From: Chloroflexota bacterium
Lineage (GTDB): Bacteria > Chloroflexota > Anaerolineae > Anaerolineales > Villigracilaceae
Length of the DNA: 64,000 nt
Direction of reading: 5' to 3'
NCBI GenBank assembly: GCA_016191845.1
Contig: JACPVF010000007.1
Location: 806,001 to 870,000, forward strand
Below are positions 53,390 through 64,000 of this stretch, one piece after another. Both the position numbers and the translations under genes were made by a program. Each line of letters starts with the position of its first letter. The first letter of the stretch is position 1. The notes beneath the pieces are model-generated. The model saw nothing but the letters and a program-made list of their open reading frames with translations, made no database searches and had not been told where the DNA came from.

Positions 53390-54298
53390 CTAGGCTTGTG
53401 GCTCGTCGGCCAGGATGGGGGTGTTGTTTTCTATGGGAGGCACAGGCGAGAGACGCAAGTAAGTCAGGGTCCAGCCGGTCTTTATCATCGTCAGGACGAT
53501 GCCCTGCACGAAGGCCATGATTGGAAGGGCGATCAGATACCCGATTCCAAGGATCCACAGGAAACTGCGCGGCAGGACGTCCTCAGCGATGAGCATGGGT
53601 AGGAAACCGATGGGCATGAAGATCGGGAAGACAATTATAGAACTGATGATGCCCAGACCGACATACAGGATGAGCGCCACGAGGAGAACGGACATCTTAT
53701 TCTTGAGGACAAGGTCCCATGCGCGACGCAGCGACTCCATTATGCCCAGCCCGTCCACGACCATGGACGCCTCGGCCAACTCCATCACAGCTATGGCGGC
53801 ATACATCAACGGGTAGATGAGAAAAGTAAGCGGCCATAAACACAGGTTGGCCAACCCAAAGGTCAGCAGCGAAGCGACGATTTGAATCCCCATGATGACA
53901 GCATACACTGCCATGAAAGCCGCGGCAAATAAGAGCATCAGGCCGAGAAATCGCCAGAAGTAGGCTGCCGCCTCGCGCACGAGTTCGCCGGCGGAGAGTT
54001 TTTCCGCGCCGCGCTCGGCTTTCAACACACCCACCACCAGGGTCGGGCGCAGGATCGAACTGACCACATAGCTGGCTGCCATGAAGAACACGAATCCGCA
54101 TAGCAGCAATACCCAGGGCCAGGCTTCGTCCAACATGCGGTATGAATCGTTGGAGCCCAAAAGCAGGAAGAGCGGCGCGAGCATGAGCGGGATGAACAGG
54201 AAAGTGACCAGAAGCGTCAGAAACCCCGCACCCCAAAGGATTTTGTGTTTCCAGGTAATTTTCCAGATGCGTTTAATCAGTTCGTTGAGGTCGATCAT
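53390..54298 (-). CDS. Polytopic membrane protein, paralogue 1
   Basis: A 302-residue integral membrane protein with about six hydrophobic segments, one of two tandem paralogues. Landmarks shared with its partner are the N-terminus (IKRIWKITWKHKILWGAG), LVREAAAYFWRFLGLMLLFA, VMELAEASMVVDGLGIMESL and the C-terminal TLTYLRLSPVPPIEN..PILADEPQA. The family is poorly known; it resembles small multi-pass proteins described as DUF7544 or glycerophosphodiester-phosphodiesterase membrane domains, but no function can be claimed. The start follows GGGAGGA, and a -10-like TATGATAAT lies upstream in the duplicated segment. Confidence 0.78.
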   Translation of the reverse strand: MIDLNELIKRIWKITWKHKILWGAGFLTLLVTFLFIPLMLAPLFLLLGSNDSYRMLDEAWPWVLLLCGFVFFMAASYVVSSILRPTLVVGVLKAERGAEKLSAGELVREAAAYFWRFLGLMLLFAAAFMAVYAVIMGIQIVASLLTFGLANLCLWPLTFLIYPLMYAAIAVMELAEASMVVDGLGIMESLRRAWDLVLKNKMSVLLVALILYVGLGIISSIIVFPIFMPIGFLPMLIAEDVLPRSFLWILGIGYLIALPIMAFVQGIVLTMIKTGWTLTYLRLSPVPPIENNTPILADEPQA

Positions 54299-54328
54299 GT
54301 GGAATCCTCCCGGTGATGGTCTGTCCGC

Positions 54329-54364
54329 ATTATCATACACGACCCGCCGATTTTCGTCCACAGC
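54329..54364. repeat. Duplicated promoter-bearing segment, copy 2
   Basis: Exact copy of 53289-53324, followed by a near-identical stretch (CCTGCGATTCCCCGCCCGAA). It carries the -10-like TGTATGATAAT for the paralogue 1 gene. Confidence 0.85.
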
Positions 54365-54396
54365 ATCCTCCCTGCGATTCCCCGCCCGAAAAAGAG

Positions 54397-54431
54397 AAAT
54401 CCCGCCTGGAGAATTTCTCCAGGCGGGATTT
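54397..54431 (-). terminator. Intrinsic terminator after membrane paralogue 2
   Basis: A very long 17-bp stem (AAATCCCGCCTGGAGAA / TTCTCCAGGCGGGATTT) with a 1-base loop precedes TCTCTTTTTC on the minus strand. Confidence 0.88.
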
Positions 54432-54437
54432 GAAAGG

Positions 54438-55397
54438 CTAGGCTTGCGGTTCGTCGGCCAGGATGGGAGCGTTGCTCTCTACGGGGACCGTCGCGGCGGG
54501 ACTCAACCGCACGTAGGTCAGTGTCCACGCGGAACCGATGTAGGTGTAAAGGATTCCGCTCGCCAGGAGGGAGACTGGCAGGTAGGCCGCGAAGCACAAT
54601 CCGCCGACGATTAGAGGCGTCATGCTCTGACCGTTACTTGCAAAGAAGGCAATCATGGTCGGGAACAGGACGATCAGTAGCGGGATGGCAATGACCAGGC
54701 TCACACCCAGACCAATCACGAACAGGATGACTGCCATGCCGAGGATCGGGCCGAGGTTGTTGCGGGCCATGTCCCAGCCGCGTTGCCAGCCTTCCCACAT
54801 GCCCACATTGTCGCGGACGATGGCTACGTTCGCCAGTTCTATGACCAAACCCACGACGATGGAAGCCGGGATGAGGATGCAGATCAAGGGTAGGATGCAC
54901 AAGAAGCCTACGCCCGCCGTGAAGACCCCAAACAGGACGAAGGGAATCATGACGGCAAAGACGATCAGACCGATGATAAAGGACAACCCGAACACGCGCC
55001 AGAAGTAGGGCAGGCTGCCACTGAACAATTCACTGAACGACAATTTCTCGGCGCCAGCTTCTGCCTGCAACGTGCCGCGGATCAGGCCAATGCGACCCAT
55101 GTTCCCGAGGAAGATGCTCAGGACGATCAGCACCAGGAAGGCCAGGCCGATCAGAATAAAGATCCACCAGTGATCCATCATCCAGACACCAGCCTGCTCG
55201 ATCCCCCGCTCCCAGTCCTGGAAGAAGGATGGCGTGTTCCCATCCCAGTTGCCGTTCTCATTTCCGCTATTGGAACTGCCGCTCCCCGAGCCGCCTCCAC
55301 GACCACAGCCCGACAGAATGCCGAAGATCCACAACACCTTGTACTTCCAGGTGATCTGCCAGGCGCGATTCAAGACTTCGCCAAAATCGAACTTCAT
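54438..55397 (-). CDS. Polytopic membrane protein, paralogue 2
   Basis: A 319-residue membrane protein paralogous to the one encoded next. It starts MKFDFGEVLNRAWQITWKYK, followed by a glycine/serine/asparagine-rich loop (GRGGGSGSGSSNSGNENGNW) absent from paralogue 1, then about six hydrophobic segments with FSGSLPYFWRVFGLSF, VIELANVAIVRDNVGMWEGW and LTYVRLSPAATVPVESN..PILADEPQA. The conserved C-terminus suggests a binding or sorting signal. The start follows GGAAGGAG. Function unknown. Confidence 0.78.
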   Translation of the reverse strand: MKFDFGEVLNRAWQITWKYKVLWIFGILSGCGRGGGSGSGSSNSGNENGNWDGNTPSFFQDWERGIEQAGVWMMDHWWIFILIGLAFLVLIVLSIFLGNMGRIGLIRGTLQAEAGAEKLSFSELFSGSLPYFWRVFGLSFIIGLIVFAVMIPFVLFGVFTAGVGFLCILPLICILIPASIVVGLVIELANVAIVRDNVGMWEGWQRGWDMARNNLGPILGMAVILFVIGLGVSLVIAIPLLIVLFPTMIAFFASNGQSMTPLIVGGLCFAAYLPVSLLASGILYTYIGSAWTLTYVRLSPAATVPVESNAPILADEPQA

Positions 55398-58178: not shown

Positions 58179-58418
58179 ATGCAAACGCAGAATGAATGGC
58201 CGCGTTGGGCCGCTTTTCTGAAGCGTTATCATCTTGATCACTTCACCGCCTGGGTGCTCGAAGCAGGAGGGCCTCTTGCCCTGCTTGGTGCCCAGGTGCT
58301 TTATTTCGGACGCTCCTTCCTTGGTCATCAACAAGTGGACCTGCTGGCCCGCGCCCTCGAAGACGAGACCGAAGTGCGTGCATTTGCCGCCTACCTGCAT
58401 GGACAGTCCAATGGTTGA
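58179..58418 (+). CDS. Small protein at the head of the 58-64 kb operon
   Basis: A 79-residue protein of unknown function (PRWAAFLKRYHLDHFTAWVLEA in part, then GPLALLGAQVLYFGRSFLG). One moderately hydrophobic segment lies near residues 27-48, followed by an acidic helix. The stop overlaps the next gene's start, and a -10 box sits just before the ATG, so it is probably real and the first gene of the operon. No homologous family recognised. Confidence 0.65.
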   Translation: MQTQNEWPRWAAFLKRYHLDHFTAWVLEAGGPLALLGAQVLYFGRSFLGHQQVDLLARALEDETEVRAFAAYLHGQSNG

Positions 58419-59145
58419 GTTGTCGGTCACCCTCCTTTCCTTGATCCTGCTGCTGGCGCTGACCTTCCTGCGCCGCAAATCCCCACCCCCCACCCTGCGT
58501 CCCATCCCTGCATTGATCCGTCTCTATCGTGCCATCGGTTTGAGTGTGGAAGACGGCTCCCGCCTGCACGTTTCACTGGGTCGCGGCGGACTCCTCAGCG
58601 GGCGTGGCGGTGCATCTCTGGCGGGGCTGGCCATGCTGCGTTATCTCACCGAGCGCACCTCCGCCAGTGACAAGCCGCCTGTGGCCACGGCTGGCGACCC
58701 TGCGCTGGCGGTGCTCACTCAGGACACGCTCAAAGCGGGGTATGAAGCTGCCAATGCTGAGGACCTATATCAGCCCACTACGGGACGTTTAAGCGGCCCG
58801 ACCCCCTTCTCTTTTGTAGCGGGCGCGATGCCGGTTGTGCGCGATGAGAACGTCTCGGCCAACGTGCTGATGGGCGACTTCGGCCCGGAGATCGCGTTGG
58901 TGACCGAAGCCGCCGAGCGCAGCGATGTCCCGACCCTGGGCGGCACCGATGACCTCCCTGCGCAGGCCGTGTTGTACGCCGCAGCGCAGGAGCCACTCAT
59001 CGGCGAGGAACTCTTCGCGGCGGGCGCGTACCTCGGTGCGGGTCCGTCTCACGCCGCCAGTTTGACCGTGCAAGACATCCTGCGCTGGGCGTTGATCCTG
59101 TTCCTGTTGGGTGGTGCGGCGCTCAAGATGCTGGGGGTGATCTGA
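58411..59145 (+). CDS. DUF6754-like membrane protein
   Basis: A 244-residue protein with an N-terminal membrane segment (ELSVTLLSLILLLALTFL) and a C-terminal one (ILRWALILFLLGGAALKMLG). Between them is a domain with LIRLYRAIGLSVEDGSRLHV near residue 40, GGASLAGLAMLRYL, ENVSANVLMGDFGPEIALV and the C-terminal EPLIGEELFAAGAYLG. I recall this arrangement as the DUF6754 family found mainly in Chloroflexota, function unknown. Start overlaps the previous gene by eight bases and its stop overlaps the next start (TGATG). Confidence 0.78.
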   Translation: MVELSVTLLSLILLLALTFLRRKSPPPTLRPIPALIRLYRAIGLSVEDGSRLHVSLGRGGLLSGRGGASLAGLAMLRYLTERTSASDKPPVATAGDPALAVLTQDTLKAGYEAANAEDLYQPTTGRLSGPTPFSFVAGAMPVVRDENVSANVLMGDFGPEIALVTEAAERSDVPTLGGTDDLPAQAVLYAAAQEPLIGEELFAAGAYLGAGPSHAASLTVQDILRWALILFLLGGAALKMLGVI

Positions 59146-59759
59146 TGAAGTACGTCTCTGCTTTCTTTGCCATTGCATTCGGCCTGCTGGTGCTGGCGGG
59201 ATACTTTGTGCCCGCTCTCGAACCGTTGCAGGCCCTGCTCATCAGTTGGGCGGGGATCCTGTTGGCTGTGGCGTCGTTGATCGGTGTCTTCAACCTGATT
59301 ACCGTCCACGGCGAAAAGATTCGCAGCCGCGAGAAGAACAGCGGTTACAGCAGCTTGCTCCTGGTCTCGCTGGTGCTGACCTTCCTCCTCGGCCTGGCCC
59401 TGGGACCTTCCCACCCCGTCATGCAGGGCGTGGTCGAGTCAGTCATCCTGCCGGTCGAGGCCTCGCTCATGGCCATCCTGAGTGTGACCCTGCTCTACGC
59501 GGCTATCCGCCTGTTGCGCCGCCGTGTGGATGTGATGAGCGTGATCTTCCTGCTGACTGTGCTGGCCGTGCTGGTCTGGTCGCTGGCCCTGCCACCTTAT
59601 GGTGAACTCGCGTTGTTCGGCAACACCCTACGTCCATGGTTGACCCAGGTGTTGGCCTTGGGCGGTGCGCGCGGAATCCTGATCGGGGTGGCGCTCGGCG
59701 CGTTGACCACCGGTCTGCGTGTCCTGCTGGCCTTCGATCGTCCGTATGGGGGCAAATAA
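59145..59759 (+). CDS. Polytopic membrane protein of the 58-64 kb operon
   Basis: A 204-residue integral membrane protein with about six hydrophobic segments and short loops (HGEKIRSREKNSG, RRRVDV, DRPYGGK tail). The cytoplasmic basic loop after the second or third segment contains a charged motif. No family recognised. It is translationally coupled to both neighbours (TGATG and TAATG overlaps), arguing for a fixed stoichiometric complex. Confidence 0.78.
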   Translation: MKYVSAFFAIAFGLLVLAGYFVPALEPLQALLISWAGILLAVASLIGVFNLITVHGEKIRSREKNSGYSSLLLVSLVLTFLLGLALGPSHPVMQGVVESVILPVEASLMAILSVTLLYAAIRLLRRRVDVMSVIFLLTVLAVLVWSLALPPYGELALFGNTLRPWLTQVLALGGARGILIGVALGALTTGLRVLLAFDRPYGGK

Positions 59760-62596
59760 TGGCTGATGTTAAATGCACCATCTGCGGACAGAGCAATCCC
59801 GCTGATGCCACCTTCTGTGAAAATTGCGGTGCGTCCCTCTCGAAGACGGGCAACTCGATCCAGCCTGGGCAGATCTCTTCCGACCATACGACCTCCGAAC
59901 TCGAACCGGTCCTGCCCGATTGGCTGCGCGATGTGCGCGGTCAGGACAATCGGCCCGTGAGCGGGGGCGATGAAATGCCCTCGACCTTTCAGAACCCGCC
60001 TTCTGCCACGATGTCTTCTTCCTCGGACCTGTTGGCGGGTCTGCACTCCCAATCTGCTGATGACGAAGAAGAGGTCCCTGACTGGCTGGCGGATATCACC
60101 GGTGCGGAGAGTGGCAAGAAGAAGTCTCAACCTGAAGTTGGCGAATCTCGCCGCGTGGAATTGGGCGGACCCAGCCAGCCCGCGCCCGCTCCTGAGCCCG
60201 AAGACGAAATGCCCTCGTGGCTGTCCAGCCTGTCGTCGCAAGAGCCCACGACAAGTCAGGATGAATTGGGCGTCTGGCTCCGCAAAGCGGACTCGACCCC
60301 GGCCGAGAATCCGTCTGCTGCGACGGCATCCGCCATAGGTCCGTTTGGCGGATTCACCGAACCGTTGCCGCCTTCCCCCGAAGAATCCCAATCCGACTGG
60401 TTATCCAGTCTGCAGTCCGAAGCGTCCATTTCCGAGGAACCCGCCAAGCCCAACACGGGCTCGTTCGGCGATGTGGAGCTTCCCGCTTGGCTGAAGGGTG
60501 AAGAGCCCGAATCGCCTGCACCGGCTGCAAGCACATCCATGCCCGATTGGCTGAAAAGCATGGAGGCCGAAGCCGCCGCGCCCCCGCCGCCGGTCGAGAT
60601 GCCTGCGCCCGTGGACGCCGGCCCGTTTGACTTCAAGGCCCAGGAACCTGAACTTCCTCCGGCCGAGGTCGCTCCTGATTTCGAGATGCCCGATTGGTTA
60701 AAGGGCATGGGACCGTCCGAGCCGGCCGAAACGCAGGCTGCCGCTCCCGCCCTCGACACGTCGGATTGGCTCAAGGGACTGGATCAGCCTGAACCTGCTG
60801 CGCCACCCACGGCGCCGACTTCCTCTGACTTCGAAATGCCTGACTGGTTGAAGGGCGCAGAGCCCGCCCAACCAGCCGAGGCACAGGCTGCTCCCGCGTT
60901 CGATGCCCCCGATTGGCTCAAGGGCATGGACCAGCCATCCGCTCCCGCTCAATCCGAGTCCGACTTTACGATGCCCGACTGGTTAGGTGGCGCGAAGCCG
61001 GTGGAGCAGCCACCTGCGGTGGAACCCGCCTCTGTTCCTGAATCTGCCTTCAACGTGGACCTGCCCGACTGGCTGAGGGGCGCAGGCGTGAAATCGGATG
61101 AACCCGCCAAGGCGGAGATTCCGCCTGCGGCGCCGATGGCTGCCGCAGCTGCCGTGACGGGCGCGGCCGCCTTCACCGACCTGCCGCCTGAGGATCTGCC
61201 CCTGGCAGCCGAGCTCCCGGACTGGCTCTCGGACTTGGGCAAGGCTCCTGCCACCGACATGTCCAGGTTCCCCACCCCTGAGACGGCCATCCCTCAACAG
61301 ATCCCCGAGGAAATGGAAGGCTTGCCGCCCGCTGAGGAGCCGATGTCCAGCGGCAGTCTTGACTCTCTCTTTACCGAAATGCCCGACTGGCTCTCGGCCA
61401 GCGCAGGCTCTGAGCAATTGCCCCCATCCGAAGAACCCGATACGACCATCTCGCCGGCCAGCCTGCCCTCTTGGGTGCAGGCCATGCGCCCGGTGGAAGC
61501 CGCGATGAGCGGGCACACCGCCGAGGCTGATGAGGCGTTGGAATCCGAGGGCCCCCTGGCTGGCCTGCACGGTGTACTGCCCGCTGTGGTCTATGCCGGT
61601 GCGTCCAGCAAGCCCAAGCCGCTGGCTTTCAAACTCCAGACCGACGATGAACAACAGACCCAGGCTGCCCTGCTCGAACAGGTGCTGGCCGCCGAGTCGC
61701 GCCCCGAGCCGATGGTCACGCCGTCCCGTGTCAGTTCCCAGCGCATCCTGCGGATCGTCATCGGCGTGTTGCTGCTGGCCGTGGTCGTCGCCGGGCTGGT
61801 GATGGGGACACAGATCTTCCCGATGCCGTTGGGGCGCCCCGCTGAGACGATGGCCGCCTTCAATGTGGTGGATGGGCTGATCCCGCCCGACGCGCCGGTG
61901 CTGGTGATCTTCGACTACGAACCCGCCCTGGCCGGTGAAATGGAAGCCGCCGCTGCGCCCTTGCTCGATCACCTGCTGGTCAAGCAGCATCCACGCCTGG
62001 CACTGCTCTCTACCTCACCGACCGGCGCGGCGCTGGCAGCGCGCATGTTCAGTGGGCCCCTGGCTGACCTGCCCGGCGTCCGTGCGGTAAACCTGGGTTA
62101 TCTGCCCGGTGGCCAGACCTCGATCCGCGCCTTCGCCAGCGACCCGACCCGCACAGCGACCTTCCCGTCGGATGTATCGCTGTTCAACCTGGCCCCGTCG
62201 CCGGTCTGGCAATCTGAGACCCTGCAGGGCGTGCAGTCCCTTTCGAATTTTGCAGCAATCATCGTCATCACCGACAGCGCCGAGACCGGCCGCACCTGGA
62301 TCGAACAAGCCGGGCCACGGCGCGGATCCGCGCAGTTCCTGGTGGTCTCCAGCGCGCAGGCCGCTCCGCTCTTCCAACCGTACTATGCTTCCGGTCAAAT
62401 CAATGGTCTGGTGAGCGGGCTGTACGACGGCGCCGTGCTCGAACAGAACAATGCCAACCGTCCGGGCCTGTCCCGCCGCTACTGGGATGCTTACAATCTC
62501 AGCCTGATTCTGGCGTTGGTCCTTTTGACGGGAGGCGCGTTGTGGAGCCTGGCCGCTGGCCTGCGCGAACGCATGACTGGCAGGAAGGCCGGATAA
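59759..62596 (+). CDS. Zinc-ribbon protein with 16 PDWL-type repeats and membrane anchor
   Basis: A 945-residue protein. Residues 1-25 form a zinc ribbon (CTICGQ..FCENCG). About residues 45-600 are low-complexity Pro/Ala/Glu-rich with sixteen short motifs of the form P-D-W-L-K-G-M (variants PDWLRDV, PSWLSSL, SDWLKGL, PAWLKGE), spaced by 20-45 residues. A membrane segment follows (ILRIVIGVLLLAVVVAGLVMG, in part), then an extracytoplasmic alpha/beta region and a final membrane segment near the C-terminus (LSLILALVLLTGGALWSLAA in part). Looks like a tethered scaffold with many docking peptides. Start overlaps the previous stop. Confidence 0.85.
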   Translation: MADVKCTICGQSNPADATFCENCGASLSKTGNSIQPGQISSDHTTSELEPVLPDWLRDVRGQDNRPVSGGDEMPSTFQNPPSATMSSSSDLLAGLHSQSADDEEEVPDWLADITGAESGKKKSQPEVGESRRVELGGPSQPAPAPEPEDEMPSWLSSLSSQEPTTSQDELGVWLRKADSTPAENPSAATASAIGPFGGFTEPLPPSPEESQSDWLSSLQSEASISEEPAKPNTGSFGDVELPAWLKGEEPESPAPAASTSMPDWLKSMEAEAAAPPPPVEMPAPVDAGPFDFKAQEPELPPAEVAPDFEMPDWLKGMGPSEPAETQAAAPALDTSDWLKGLDQPEPAAPPTAPTSSDFEMPDWLKGAEPAQPAEAQAAPAFDAPDWLKGMDQPSAPAQSESDFTMPDWLGGAKPVEQPPAVEPASVPESAFNVDLPDWLRGAGVKSDEPAKAEIPPAAPMAAAAAVTGAAAFTDLPPEDLPLAAELPDWLSDLGKAPATDMSRFPTPETAIPQQIPEEMEGLPPAEEPMSSGSLDSLFTEMPDWLSASAGSEQLPPSEEPDTTISPASLPSWVQAMRPVEAAMSGHTAEADEALESEGPLAGLHGVLPAVVYAGASSKPKPLAFKLQTDDEQQTQAALLEQVLAAESRPEPMVTPSRVSSQRILRIVIGVLLLAVVVAGLVMGTQIFPMPLGRPAETMAAFNVVDGLIPPDAPVLVIFDYEPALAGEMEAAAAPLLDHLLVKQHPRLALLSTSPTGAALAARMFSGPLADLPGVRAVNLGYLPGGQTSIRAFASDPTRTATFPSDVSLFNLAPSPVWQSETLQGVQSLSNFAAIIVITDSAETGRTWIEQAGPRRGSAQFLVVSSAQAAPLFQPYYASGQINGLVSGLYDGAVLEQNNANRPGLSRRYWDAYNLSLILALVLLTGGALWSLAAGLRERMTGRKAG

Positions 62597-62597
62597 A

Positions 62598-63278
62598 ATG
62601 CCCATCAACCTCGACCTGATTACCGGTGCGTTTGCCTTCTTCTTTACTGTGCTGATCTTCAGCTACCTGCTGGGCGACAATCCGCTCTTCCGTATTGGCT
62701 CATACATCTTCGTCGGCGTGACGGCGGGGTACGTGGCGTCAGTCGCCATGTGGCAGGTGGTCTATCCACGCCTGATTTATCCGCTGGTATACGGCGCGTC
62801 GACCGATAAACTGCTGGTCTTCTTTCCGCTCCTGCTGGCGGGTTTCCTGTTCTTGAAAATTTCGCCGCGTACCAGCCATCTTGGTTCGCCTGCCATGGCT
62901 TACGTGGTGGGAGTCAGCGCGGCGGTGACAGTAGGCGGCGCGGTGATCGGTACGATTCTGCCGCAGACCTGGGCCACCATCAACCTGTTCGACATGCAGA
63001 CCTCCCAGTCCTGGCTGGATGTGATTGAGTCGGCAGGCAACGGCATCATCATCCTGATTGCGTTGGTCGCCACTTTGAGCTATTTCCACTTCGGCGCACG
63101 TCCCACCGCCGACGGGGCCCCGCGGCGCTTTGTCCCGATCGAGTGGCTCGCCTGGCTGGGACGGATCTTCATCGCCGTGACGTTGGGCACGCTGTTCGCG
63201 GGCGTCCTGCTGGCTTCGTTGACCGCGCTGATTGAGCGCGTCTCTTCGTTGTATCTATTCATCTCTTCCTTCTTCTAA
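62598..63278 (+). CDS. Polytopic membrane protein of the 58-64 kb operon
   Basis: A 226-residue integral membrane protein with about seven hydrophobic segments (first INLDLITGAFAFFFTVLIFS in part; last near residues 190-215). The loops are short; the cytoplasmic one carries FHFGARPTADGAPRRFVP and GYVASVAMWQVVYPR. No family recognised. It starts one base after the scaffold protein stop and ends four bases before the ATPase gene. Confidence 0.78.
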   Translation: MPINLDLITGAFAFFFTVLIFSYLLGDNPLFRIGSYIFVGVTAGYVASVAMWQVVYPRLIYPLVYGASTDKLLVFFPLLLAGFLFLKISPRTSHLGSPAMAYVVGVSAAVTVGGAVIGTILPQTWATINLFDMQTSQSWLDVIESAGNGIIILIALVATLSYFHFGARPTADGAPRRFVPIEWLAWLGRIFIAVTLGTLFAGVLLASLTALIERVSSLYLFISSFF

Positions 63279-63282
63279 ACCT

Positions 63283-64000
63283 ATGCCCGTCTCATTGATC
63301 GAAGGCGATTCCCTCCTGGCAGTTGACATCGGCGCGGCCACTACGCGCGCGGTGCTCTTCGACGTGGTCGAAGGTCAGTACCGCTTCGTGGCCGCAGGCC
63401 ACGCTCCGTCCACGGCGGAGGCTCCGTTCAAGGATGTAAGCGAGGGCGTGCGCAACGCCATCAGCCACTTGCAAAATGTGACCGGGCGCGCGTTCCTTGA
63501 CACAGACCGTACGCTGGTCACGCCATCCCAGCCCAGCGGCGCGGGGGTGGATGCCTTCGTGGCGACTCTCTCCGCGGGTCCGACCCTCAAGGCGGTGGTC
63601 GTCGGCCTGCTGGCAGACGTATCCCTCGAATCTGCGCGCCGCCTGACCGAGACCGTCTACGCCCGTGTGGTCGACAGCATCGGCCTGAACGATCCCCGCC
63701 GCCCGGACGAAGTCATCGATGGGTTGCTCACCCTGCACCCGGACATGGTCGTGGTGACGGGCGGTACCGACGGCGGCGCCTCGCGCTCCCTGCAAAAGAT
63801 TCTCGAACCCATCGGCCTGGCCAGTTACCTGATGCCGGCTGAGAAACGCCCGTCCATTTTGTTCGCGGGAAACCAGAAGATGGAGACCGAGGTCAAGTCG
63901 ATGCTAGGAACGCTGACATCCTCCCTGCACTTCAGCCCCAATGTGCGCCCTTCGCTCGAAACTGAAGACCTCGAGCCTGCTGCGCGTGAACTGGCCCGCT
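63283..64000 (+). CDS. MutL/GlmL-like ASKHA-fold ATPase (3' end outside window)
   Basis: The first 239 residues of a protein running off the window. It opens SLLAVDIGAATTRAVLFDVV, the phosphate-binding loop of ASKHA (actin/hexokinase) ATPases, then GHAPSTAEAP, and MVVVTGGTDGGASRSL, which is typical of the GlmL/MutL family associated with glutamate mutase. No glutamate mutase subunit gene is seen nearby. Its place in the operon suggests it works with the membrane proteins rather than in glutamate metabolism. The C-terminus is not visible. Confidence 0.85.
   Translation, partial: MPVSLIEGDSLLAVDIGAATTRAVLFDVVEGQYRFVAAGHAPSTAEAPFKDVSEGVRNAISHLQNVTGRAFLDTDRTLVTPSQPSGAGVDAFVATLSAGPTLKAVVVGLLADVSLESARRLTETVYARVVDSIGLNDPRRPDEVIDGLLTLHPDMVVVTGGTDGGASRSLQKILEPIGLASYLMPAEKRPSILFAGNQKMETEVKSMLGTLTSSLHFSPNVRPSLETEDLEPAARELAR

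Follow-up and report, generated by a model that had tools for sequence, protein, structure and literature searches.

The DNA analysed here (the window) is a stretch of 64,000 nucleotides of contig JACPVF010000007.1, positions 806,001 to 870,000 of the forward strand, from a Chloroflexota bacterium of the Villigracilaceae (GCA_016191845.1) whose genome measures 4.6 Mb in 18 contigs. Near its end lies an operon, g1 to g6, followed outside the window by g7 and g8. As the original prediction had supposed, the genes form a conserved set in which many membrane proteins belong to no described family and which includes an actin-fold ATPase other than the mutase accessory protein. Genes g1 to g6 span 58179-65037 on the plus strand, with the 3′ part of g6 beyond the window, and neighbours overlap or sit within 8 bases of one another. 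Genes g1 and g2 overlap by 8 bases, g2/g3 and g3/g4 by 1 base each, and gaps of 1 and 4 bases separate g4 from g5 and g5 from g6, respectively. The six genes are thus real and closely packed, as foreseen, although the offsets range from 1 to 8 bases and not from 0 to 4. The fixed stoichiometry read from this packing does not follow, since gene overlap does not show it.

The first gene, g1 (58179..58418), encodes a small protein of 79 residues without family match and, by hydropathy, without a membrane segment. It is followed by g2 (58411..59145), a DUF6754 protein whose two membrane segments flank a Rossmann-like domain, and by g3 (59145..59759), a polytopic membrane protein by hydropathy with no accepted family. 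The membrane scaffold g4 (59759..62596) consists of a zinc ribbon (59771..59839), a region of P-x-W-L (PxWL) repeats containing 16 W-[LV] sites (59921..61477), a membrane segment, a domain termed the ectodomain from its presumed side of the membrane (61802..62488) and a second membrane segment. Gene g5 (62598..63278) encodes a membrane protein with six hydrophobic segments and without family, while g6, with its ATG at 63283 and its end at 65037 (63283..64000 in the window; L002:7284-9038), encodes an actin-fold (ASKHA) ATPase of the MutL superfamily. Outside the window and on the same strand, g7 (65013-66095) is an open frame of 360 residues with barrel-sandwich and KOW domains in homologue rows, and g8 (66158-66700; L002:10159-10701) encodes 180 residues with an LPxTG-like tail, assigned from the C-terminal motif of its homologues. 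Visual inspection alone, with no scan, suggests metF for the gene after g8.

The ATPase g6 matches the Pfam MutL family (PF13941) at 1.2e-63 (215.9 bits, cut-off 27); in L229, whose g6 is more divergent, PF13941 is not detected at E 0.01. It resembles GlmL/MutL (PF13941, NF040745) in its superfamily and in the ASKHA core motifs, which are mostly kept: among 37 homologues the first D-x-G-x-x-T motif retains D in 76%, G in 97% and T in 95%, and the second D-x-G motif is retained at 86% and 95%. The g6 protein is predicted to bind ATP. In contrast, g6 falls far below the NCBIfam GlmL cut-offs (100.7 against 475 bits and 72.8 against 204.05 bits), and all 37 of 37 homologues form one clade apart from the canonical GlmL rows (local support 0.84). 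The canonical set comprises seven rows representing five distinct genes (L033 = L094, L035 = L095); L033 was included in this tree and the fused G184 protein was left out. Mean identity is 30% within the g6 clade and about 21% across to the canonical rows, whose own mean identity of 46% is inflated by duplicate genes. The clade also carries an extra C-terminal domain with D-A-R-G-R-P, which canonical sequences lack. A very long open frame of about 1264 residues in G184 (L220:4233-8024) contains a MutL-family domain and is not of the operon type.

The expectation of a GlmL/MutL-like ATPase without a nearby glutamate mutase holds, as no mutase gene lies beside g6 and a search for a glutamate mutase locus downstream found none, g7 and g8 following instead. 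Glutamate mutase epsilon (PF06368) was not found in the window's genome (G000); among 53 genomes tested it exceeds the cut-off in one (G176) and gives any match at E up to 0.001 in seven. G176 has both g6 and a separate canonical GlmL, 20% identical to each other, and G290, another of the 53, has a second canonical-type gene and no glutamate mutase epsilon over cut-off. A glutamate mutase link of g6 was rejected on the missing neighbour, the rarity of epsilon and the separate clade.

The model of the Bellilinea g6 (mean predicted local distance difference test score, pLDDT, 93) has FtsA (1e4g) as its nearest solved fold in the VIA list, with Z 14.3 and a root-mean-square deviation (rmsd) of 4.0 over 254 residues. 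PilM (5eox) reaches Z 12.5 (rmsd 4.3, 244 residues) and other ASKHA proteins Z about 10 to 12, in searches that hardly covered the C-terminal domain. At about residues 98-247, where FtsA would have its 1C subdomain, the g6 model has an insert that aligns to receiver domains (REC Z 12.6, residues 99-247) and is also corrinoid-binding-like (1y80 Z 10.1); this insert and a C-terminal beta domain apparently distinguish g6 from FtsA. A diol dehydratase reactivase is among its Foldseek matches. The FtsA model TIGR01174 has no match over cut-off at g6, the match over cut-off in G000 being another gene (C4:234443). True FtsA occurs in all 53 genomes tested, and g6 as an FtsA replacement was therefore rejected. 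Similarly, the divisome-like role first suggested was not borne out, as the same 53 genomes keep regular FtsA and FtsZ; in 24 of the 53 Chloroflexota genomes there is more than one FtsZ-family match, some below cut-off. PilM of type IV pili is recruited by a peptide of its membrane partner, PilN, and shares with g6 a similar ASKHA fold. In contrast to that system, none of the eight operon genes matches a pilus family over cut-off in Pfam or NCBIfam, no search for pilus genes near the operon having been made. A secretion-like assembly found no support either, since no secretion family exceeds the cut-off among the Pfam and NCBIfam matches of the eight genes, no search being aimed at secretion systems.

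The scaffold g4 begins with a zinc ribbon that scores just under the Pfam cut-off of 25 (PF13240, 24.7 bits, 1.9e-5) and continues into its motif repeats. The 16 W-L sites counted earlier do precede the first membrane segment, but there are 17 W-[LIMVW] sites in all, one of them in the ectodomain, and hydropathy places two membrane segments, not one, with a domain of 229 residues between them. The open frame contains 13 P-x-W-[LIMVW] sites, whereas 200 shuffles of it gave 0.59 on average and never more than 4. Across 35 g4-type proteins there are 473 such sites, up to 63 in one homologue; this count follows the removal of two non-g4 proteins, one a frame of g6 and the other an FHA protein with a zinc ribbon, and skips one frame under 250 residues. 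The consensus, drawn from 475 sites, is [DE][LVI]P[DA]WL[RQK][EDG]. FtsZ tails of same-phylum genomes take forms such as LDIPAFLRRR, judged from the loci with FtsZ on the strand read. The apparent likeness of PxWL to the FtsZ C-terminal peptide in spacing and chemistry is no more than a lead. In contrast to the pairing of FtsA with an FtsZ tail, the scaffold offers many peptide copies together with membrane segments.

A codon-pattern search of G000 for PxWL returned 45 sites, where the reversed pattern gave 36, and showed two clusters, one being g4 and the other a TPR-flanked protein on contig C13. The latter (L213:7232-10228) is a second PxWL-repeat protein with TPR-like flanks, and one of its sites, HIPDFLRDAG, looks even closer to the FtsZ tail. 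TPR-flanked PxWL proteins, with TPR assigned by eye, also occur in L215, L216 and L218. With a stricter pattern applied to 53 genomes, no cluster appears in the six Anaerolineae genomes among them that lack a g6 match, numbers too small to weigh. G088 was considered as a genome with PxWL repeats and without g6, and was rejected when g4, g6 and g7 were found there. On the ectodomain-less scaffolds L097 to L099 a suspected amphipathic tail is no better than shuffled sequence, 1021, 665 and 1993 of 5000 shuffles reaching its value. In fragmented genomes (G012, G206, G274, G052) g2 is often near one contig end and g6 near the end of another; assemblies may break in the g4 repeats.

Homologues of g1 head the gene set in 28 of 41 fetched loci. 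The DUF6754 assignment of g2 is upheld (PF20539, 78.2 bits against a cut-off of 27, 7.3e-22). Its model (mean pLDDT 91) displays a Rossmann-like domain between two membrane helices, and the nearest folds are the RCK domains of KtrA (Z 10.4) and MthK (Z 9.5), with many Rossmann folds next at 8 to 9. Foldseek gave nothing under 1e-3, and g2 has no RCK family match in Pfam or NCBIfam, the likeness to RCK being one of fold only. The best Pfam match of g3, Cytochrom_B_C, reaches 17.2 bits, below its cut-off of 20.7, and neither g3 nor g5 matches a transporter family over cut-off in Pfam or NCBIfam. Searching the PDB with profiles of g2, g5 and the g4 ectodomain brought up no match at E up to 1, and no Pfam match over cut-off is shown for the ectodomain. 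No paper on DUF6754 was found in the literature searched, and no description of the operon in its titles and opening lines of abstracts, a literature with most subscription journals outside its scope.

The window's g7 has no Pfam match. Among 24 rows of the g7 alignment the RnfC barrel-sandwich domain is detected in eight and KOW in eight (E up to 0.1), and in the PDB the g7 profile picks out KOW proteins, Spt5 among them. In 93 of the 120 genomes with listed matches, mostly of full length and drawn from the 177 with g7 and 181 with g6, g7 lies directly after g6. In five regions with a displaced g7 (L224-L228) other frames are its neighbours. By Pfam, those adjoining it are a histidine kinase and receiver proteins in both L226 and L227, and in L224 a receiver protein; L226 also holds an ATP synthase operon and MreB, and the frames of L224, L225 and L228 are similar to those of L226. 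Several Chloroflexia-like genomes have a partial FtsA-type match some 10 kb away from g7. A type IV pilus (PilM) link for g7 was dropped, as Pfam finds two-component proteins, the ATP synthase operon and MreB in one such region. In 47 of 55 named loci the g8 homologue contains an LPxTG-like motif within its last 60 residues, and g8 also has a Pro/Thr-rich stretch. Of 17 genomes tested, 16 have sortase genes, and g8 is a possible sortase substrate. Elsewhere in the window, two neighbouring polytopic membrane proteins that look alike lie on the minus strand at 53390-55397, perhaps a tandem duplication.

Of 301 Chloroflexota genomes, 67 have DUF6754, against none of 14 control genomes, while PF13941 occurs in 158 of the 301, over cut-off in 122. 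Among the matches listed, DUF6754 and MutL share one contig in 53 of the 67 genomes, on the same strand in 53/53 and with MutL 2.2 to 6.3 kb downstream; of the remaining 14, 12 have MutL on another contig and two have no match among those listed. Profiles grown from the window genes recover g2, g3, g5 and g6 in the same order in 31 genomes from 14 families, the set being split over two contigs in one of them (G012). In these genomes g1 was found in 28, and g4 lies between g3 and g5 in all except L074, where its ectodomain only was found. A scan of named genomes gave 168 g5 relatives, of which the best 80 all bear Chloroflexota names; among these 80 loci, 43 have g1 to g8 complete, and the matches are always on a single strand. 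Each of the 46 named loci over 15 kb contains g2, g3, g5, g6 and g7, with g4 undetected in three (L160, L172, L176) and g1 in four, and in L151 g4 stands ahead of g3 when frames are sorted by start. Since 31 genomes of 14 families and the named loci share it, the order is kept beyond close relatives, in line with the original prediction.

The genes do not all have the same reach. Gene g5 occurs in 70 of the 301 genomes and together with DUF6754 in 66, against 15.6 expected. The profiles detect g6 in 181 genomes and g7 in 177; the figure for g6 is an upper one, the profile also picking canonical GlmL genes (for example in G089 and G178). All 31 loci with g5 have the g4 ectodomain, and none of seven g6 loci without g5 has it; two of these seven (L100, L102) show no recognised scaffold beside g6. 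L070 was left out of alignment A9, and L099 out of A3, as short matches. The system is modular, with g6 and g7 as the broad core. It presumably divides into a cytoplasmic core, made up of the scaffold with g6 and g7, and a membrane module to which g1, g2, g3, g5 and the g4 ectodomain belong. Plasmids contain no relative of g5 or of the ectodomain, and the only g6 relatives there are three records from E. coli (26% identity), of which one carries the annotation glutamate mutase L; IMG/VR holds no relative of g5. The operon has so far been seen only in Chloroflexota, other phyla being hardly tested.

These features are compatible, tentatively, with the operon encoding a membrane-tethered, actin-fold ATPase platform with peptide docking, a reading that is credible although it falls short of probable. 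In such a platform g6 would bind ATP and the scaffold g4, often partnered by g7, would gather it at the cytoplasmic membrane. The PxWL motifs would serve as docking peptides in many copies, much as the tail of FtsZ docks on FtsA or that of PilN on PilM; their receptor may be either g6 or another protein with which g6 comes together on the platform. The membrane part, consisting of g1, g2, g3, g5 and the g4 ectodomain, would relay the state of g6 to the envelope. Gene order, the modular co-occurrence, the separation of g6 from GlmL and the repetition of the motif are established computationally, whereas ATP binding, the physical complex, the docking partner, the direction of signalling and the envelope role are presumptive.

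Several observations weigh against the docking platform. The lead of FtsA and PilM over the other ASKHA folds is small, some 1 to 3 Z units, and Foldseek places hydantoinase, acetophenone carboxylase and acetone carboxylase chains above FtsA for g6. FtsA and FtsZ are present in every genome tested, as described above. Four g4 proteins (L078, L079, L082, L083) have no PxWL site, while such sites occur also in TPR proteins and, as two PxW[LM] sites, in a C-terminal extension of g6 in two Herpetosiphon-like loci of family f33 (L080:13439-15619 and L090:5322-7463). Thus, g6 need not be the PxWL receptor. The pairing of g5 with DUF6754 is also imperfect: g5 is found without a DUF6754 match in G002, G136, G176 and G184, and the reverse holds in G295, with g2 of G176 recovered by the window-derived profile despite the missing DUF6754 match. 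Finally, g7 lies elsewhere in Chloroflexia-like families, which account for 26 of the 27 exceptions to its adjacency with g6.

The same evidence bears on other explanations. As a member of the MutL superfamily, with an insert resembling receiver and corrinoid-binding domains and a diol dehydratase reactivase among its structural matches, g6 might be a GlmL-like chaperone or reactivase for a membrane enzyme or other partner, the operon then being a maturation system and not a structural platform. This is unlikely, as g6 scores far below the GlmL models, the one genome of 53 with mutase epsilon over cut-off has a separate GlmL that is 20% identical to its g6, and in the 19 loci listed most flanking frames are common to few or no others, so that no client enzyme is obvious. 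A transport or ion-handling complex, in which g3 and g5 form the transmembrane part, g2 an RCK-like nucleotide-sensing regulator and g6 an ATP-driven switch, would suit the polytopic nature of g3 and g5 and the proximity of the g2 domain to KtrA and MthK; it is distinctly unlikely, given that Z values only near 10 are closely followed by many unrelated Rossmann folds and that g3 and g5 lack a transporter family over cut-off.

It is quite improbable that the genes are co-regulated in an operon whose products do not form one complex. Overlapping genes alone are no proof of assembly and g7 can sit away from g6, but g2, g3, g5 and the g4 ectodomain are jointly present or absent in the loci read, which argues for a joint function. 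Very improbable is the proposal that the operon belongs to the gliding or surface-motility machine of Chloroflexota. Genes g2, g5 and g6 do occur together in G110, taken as Herpetosiphon aurantiacus, and g1 to g6 in G118 and G166, presumably Chloroflexus aurantiacus and a Roseiflexus, respectively. However, the operon is also found in Anaerolineales (class Anaerolineae) such as Bellilinea, whose cultured members are not known to be motile, and the g6-g7 core is wider still. In favour of a motility role, PMC3368417 and PMC7004002 state that the gliding genes or machinery of Chloroflexota are not known.

The docking platform might be taken further, to an undescribed envelope machine at the level of the phylum: an actin-fold ATPase distinct from FtsA, MreB, PilM and GlmL, arrayed under the membrane by scaffolds with up to dozens of FtsZ-tail-like peptides. 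It would act by way of a membrane module whose proteins are of new families, and might, for instance, help filamentous Chloroflexota to build their septa, channels or surface. This extension is possible but rather doubtful. G238, which we take to be C. aggregans, has g2, g5 and g6. According to PMC7332563, Chloroflexota have septal channels without homologues of the cyanobacterial genes, as well as cytoplasmic filaments, and clear evidence of channels is absent for C. aggregans. A pure channel role is thus disfavoured, as the genome assigned to a species without clear channels retains these genes. Septal channels, cytoplasmic filaments and gliding are open slots for the operon and not evidence. 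An operon that joins an actin-fold ATPase to unassigned membrane proteins provides a short gene list for study in Chloroflexus or Herpetosiphon and, if the peptide idea is true, would be a new example of actin-fold assembly on repeated short motifs.

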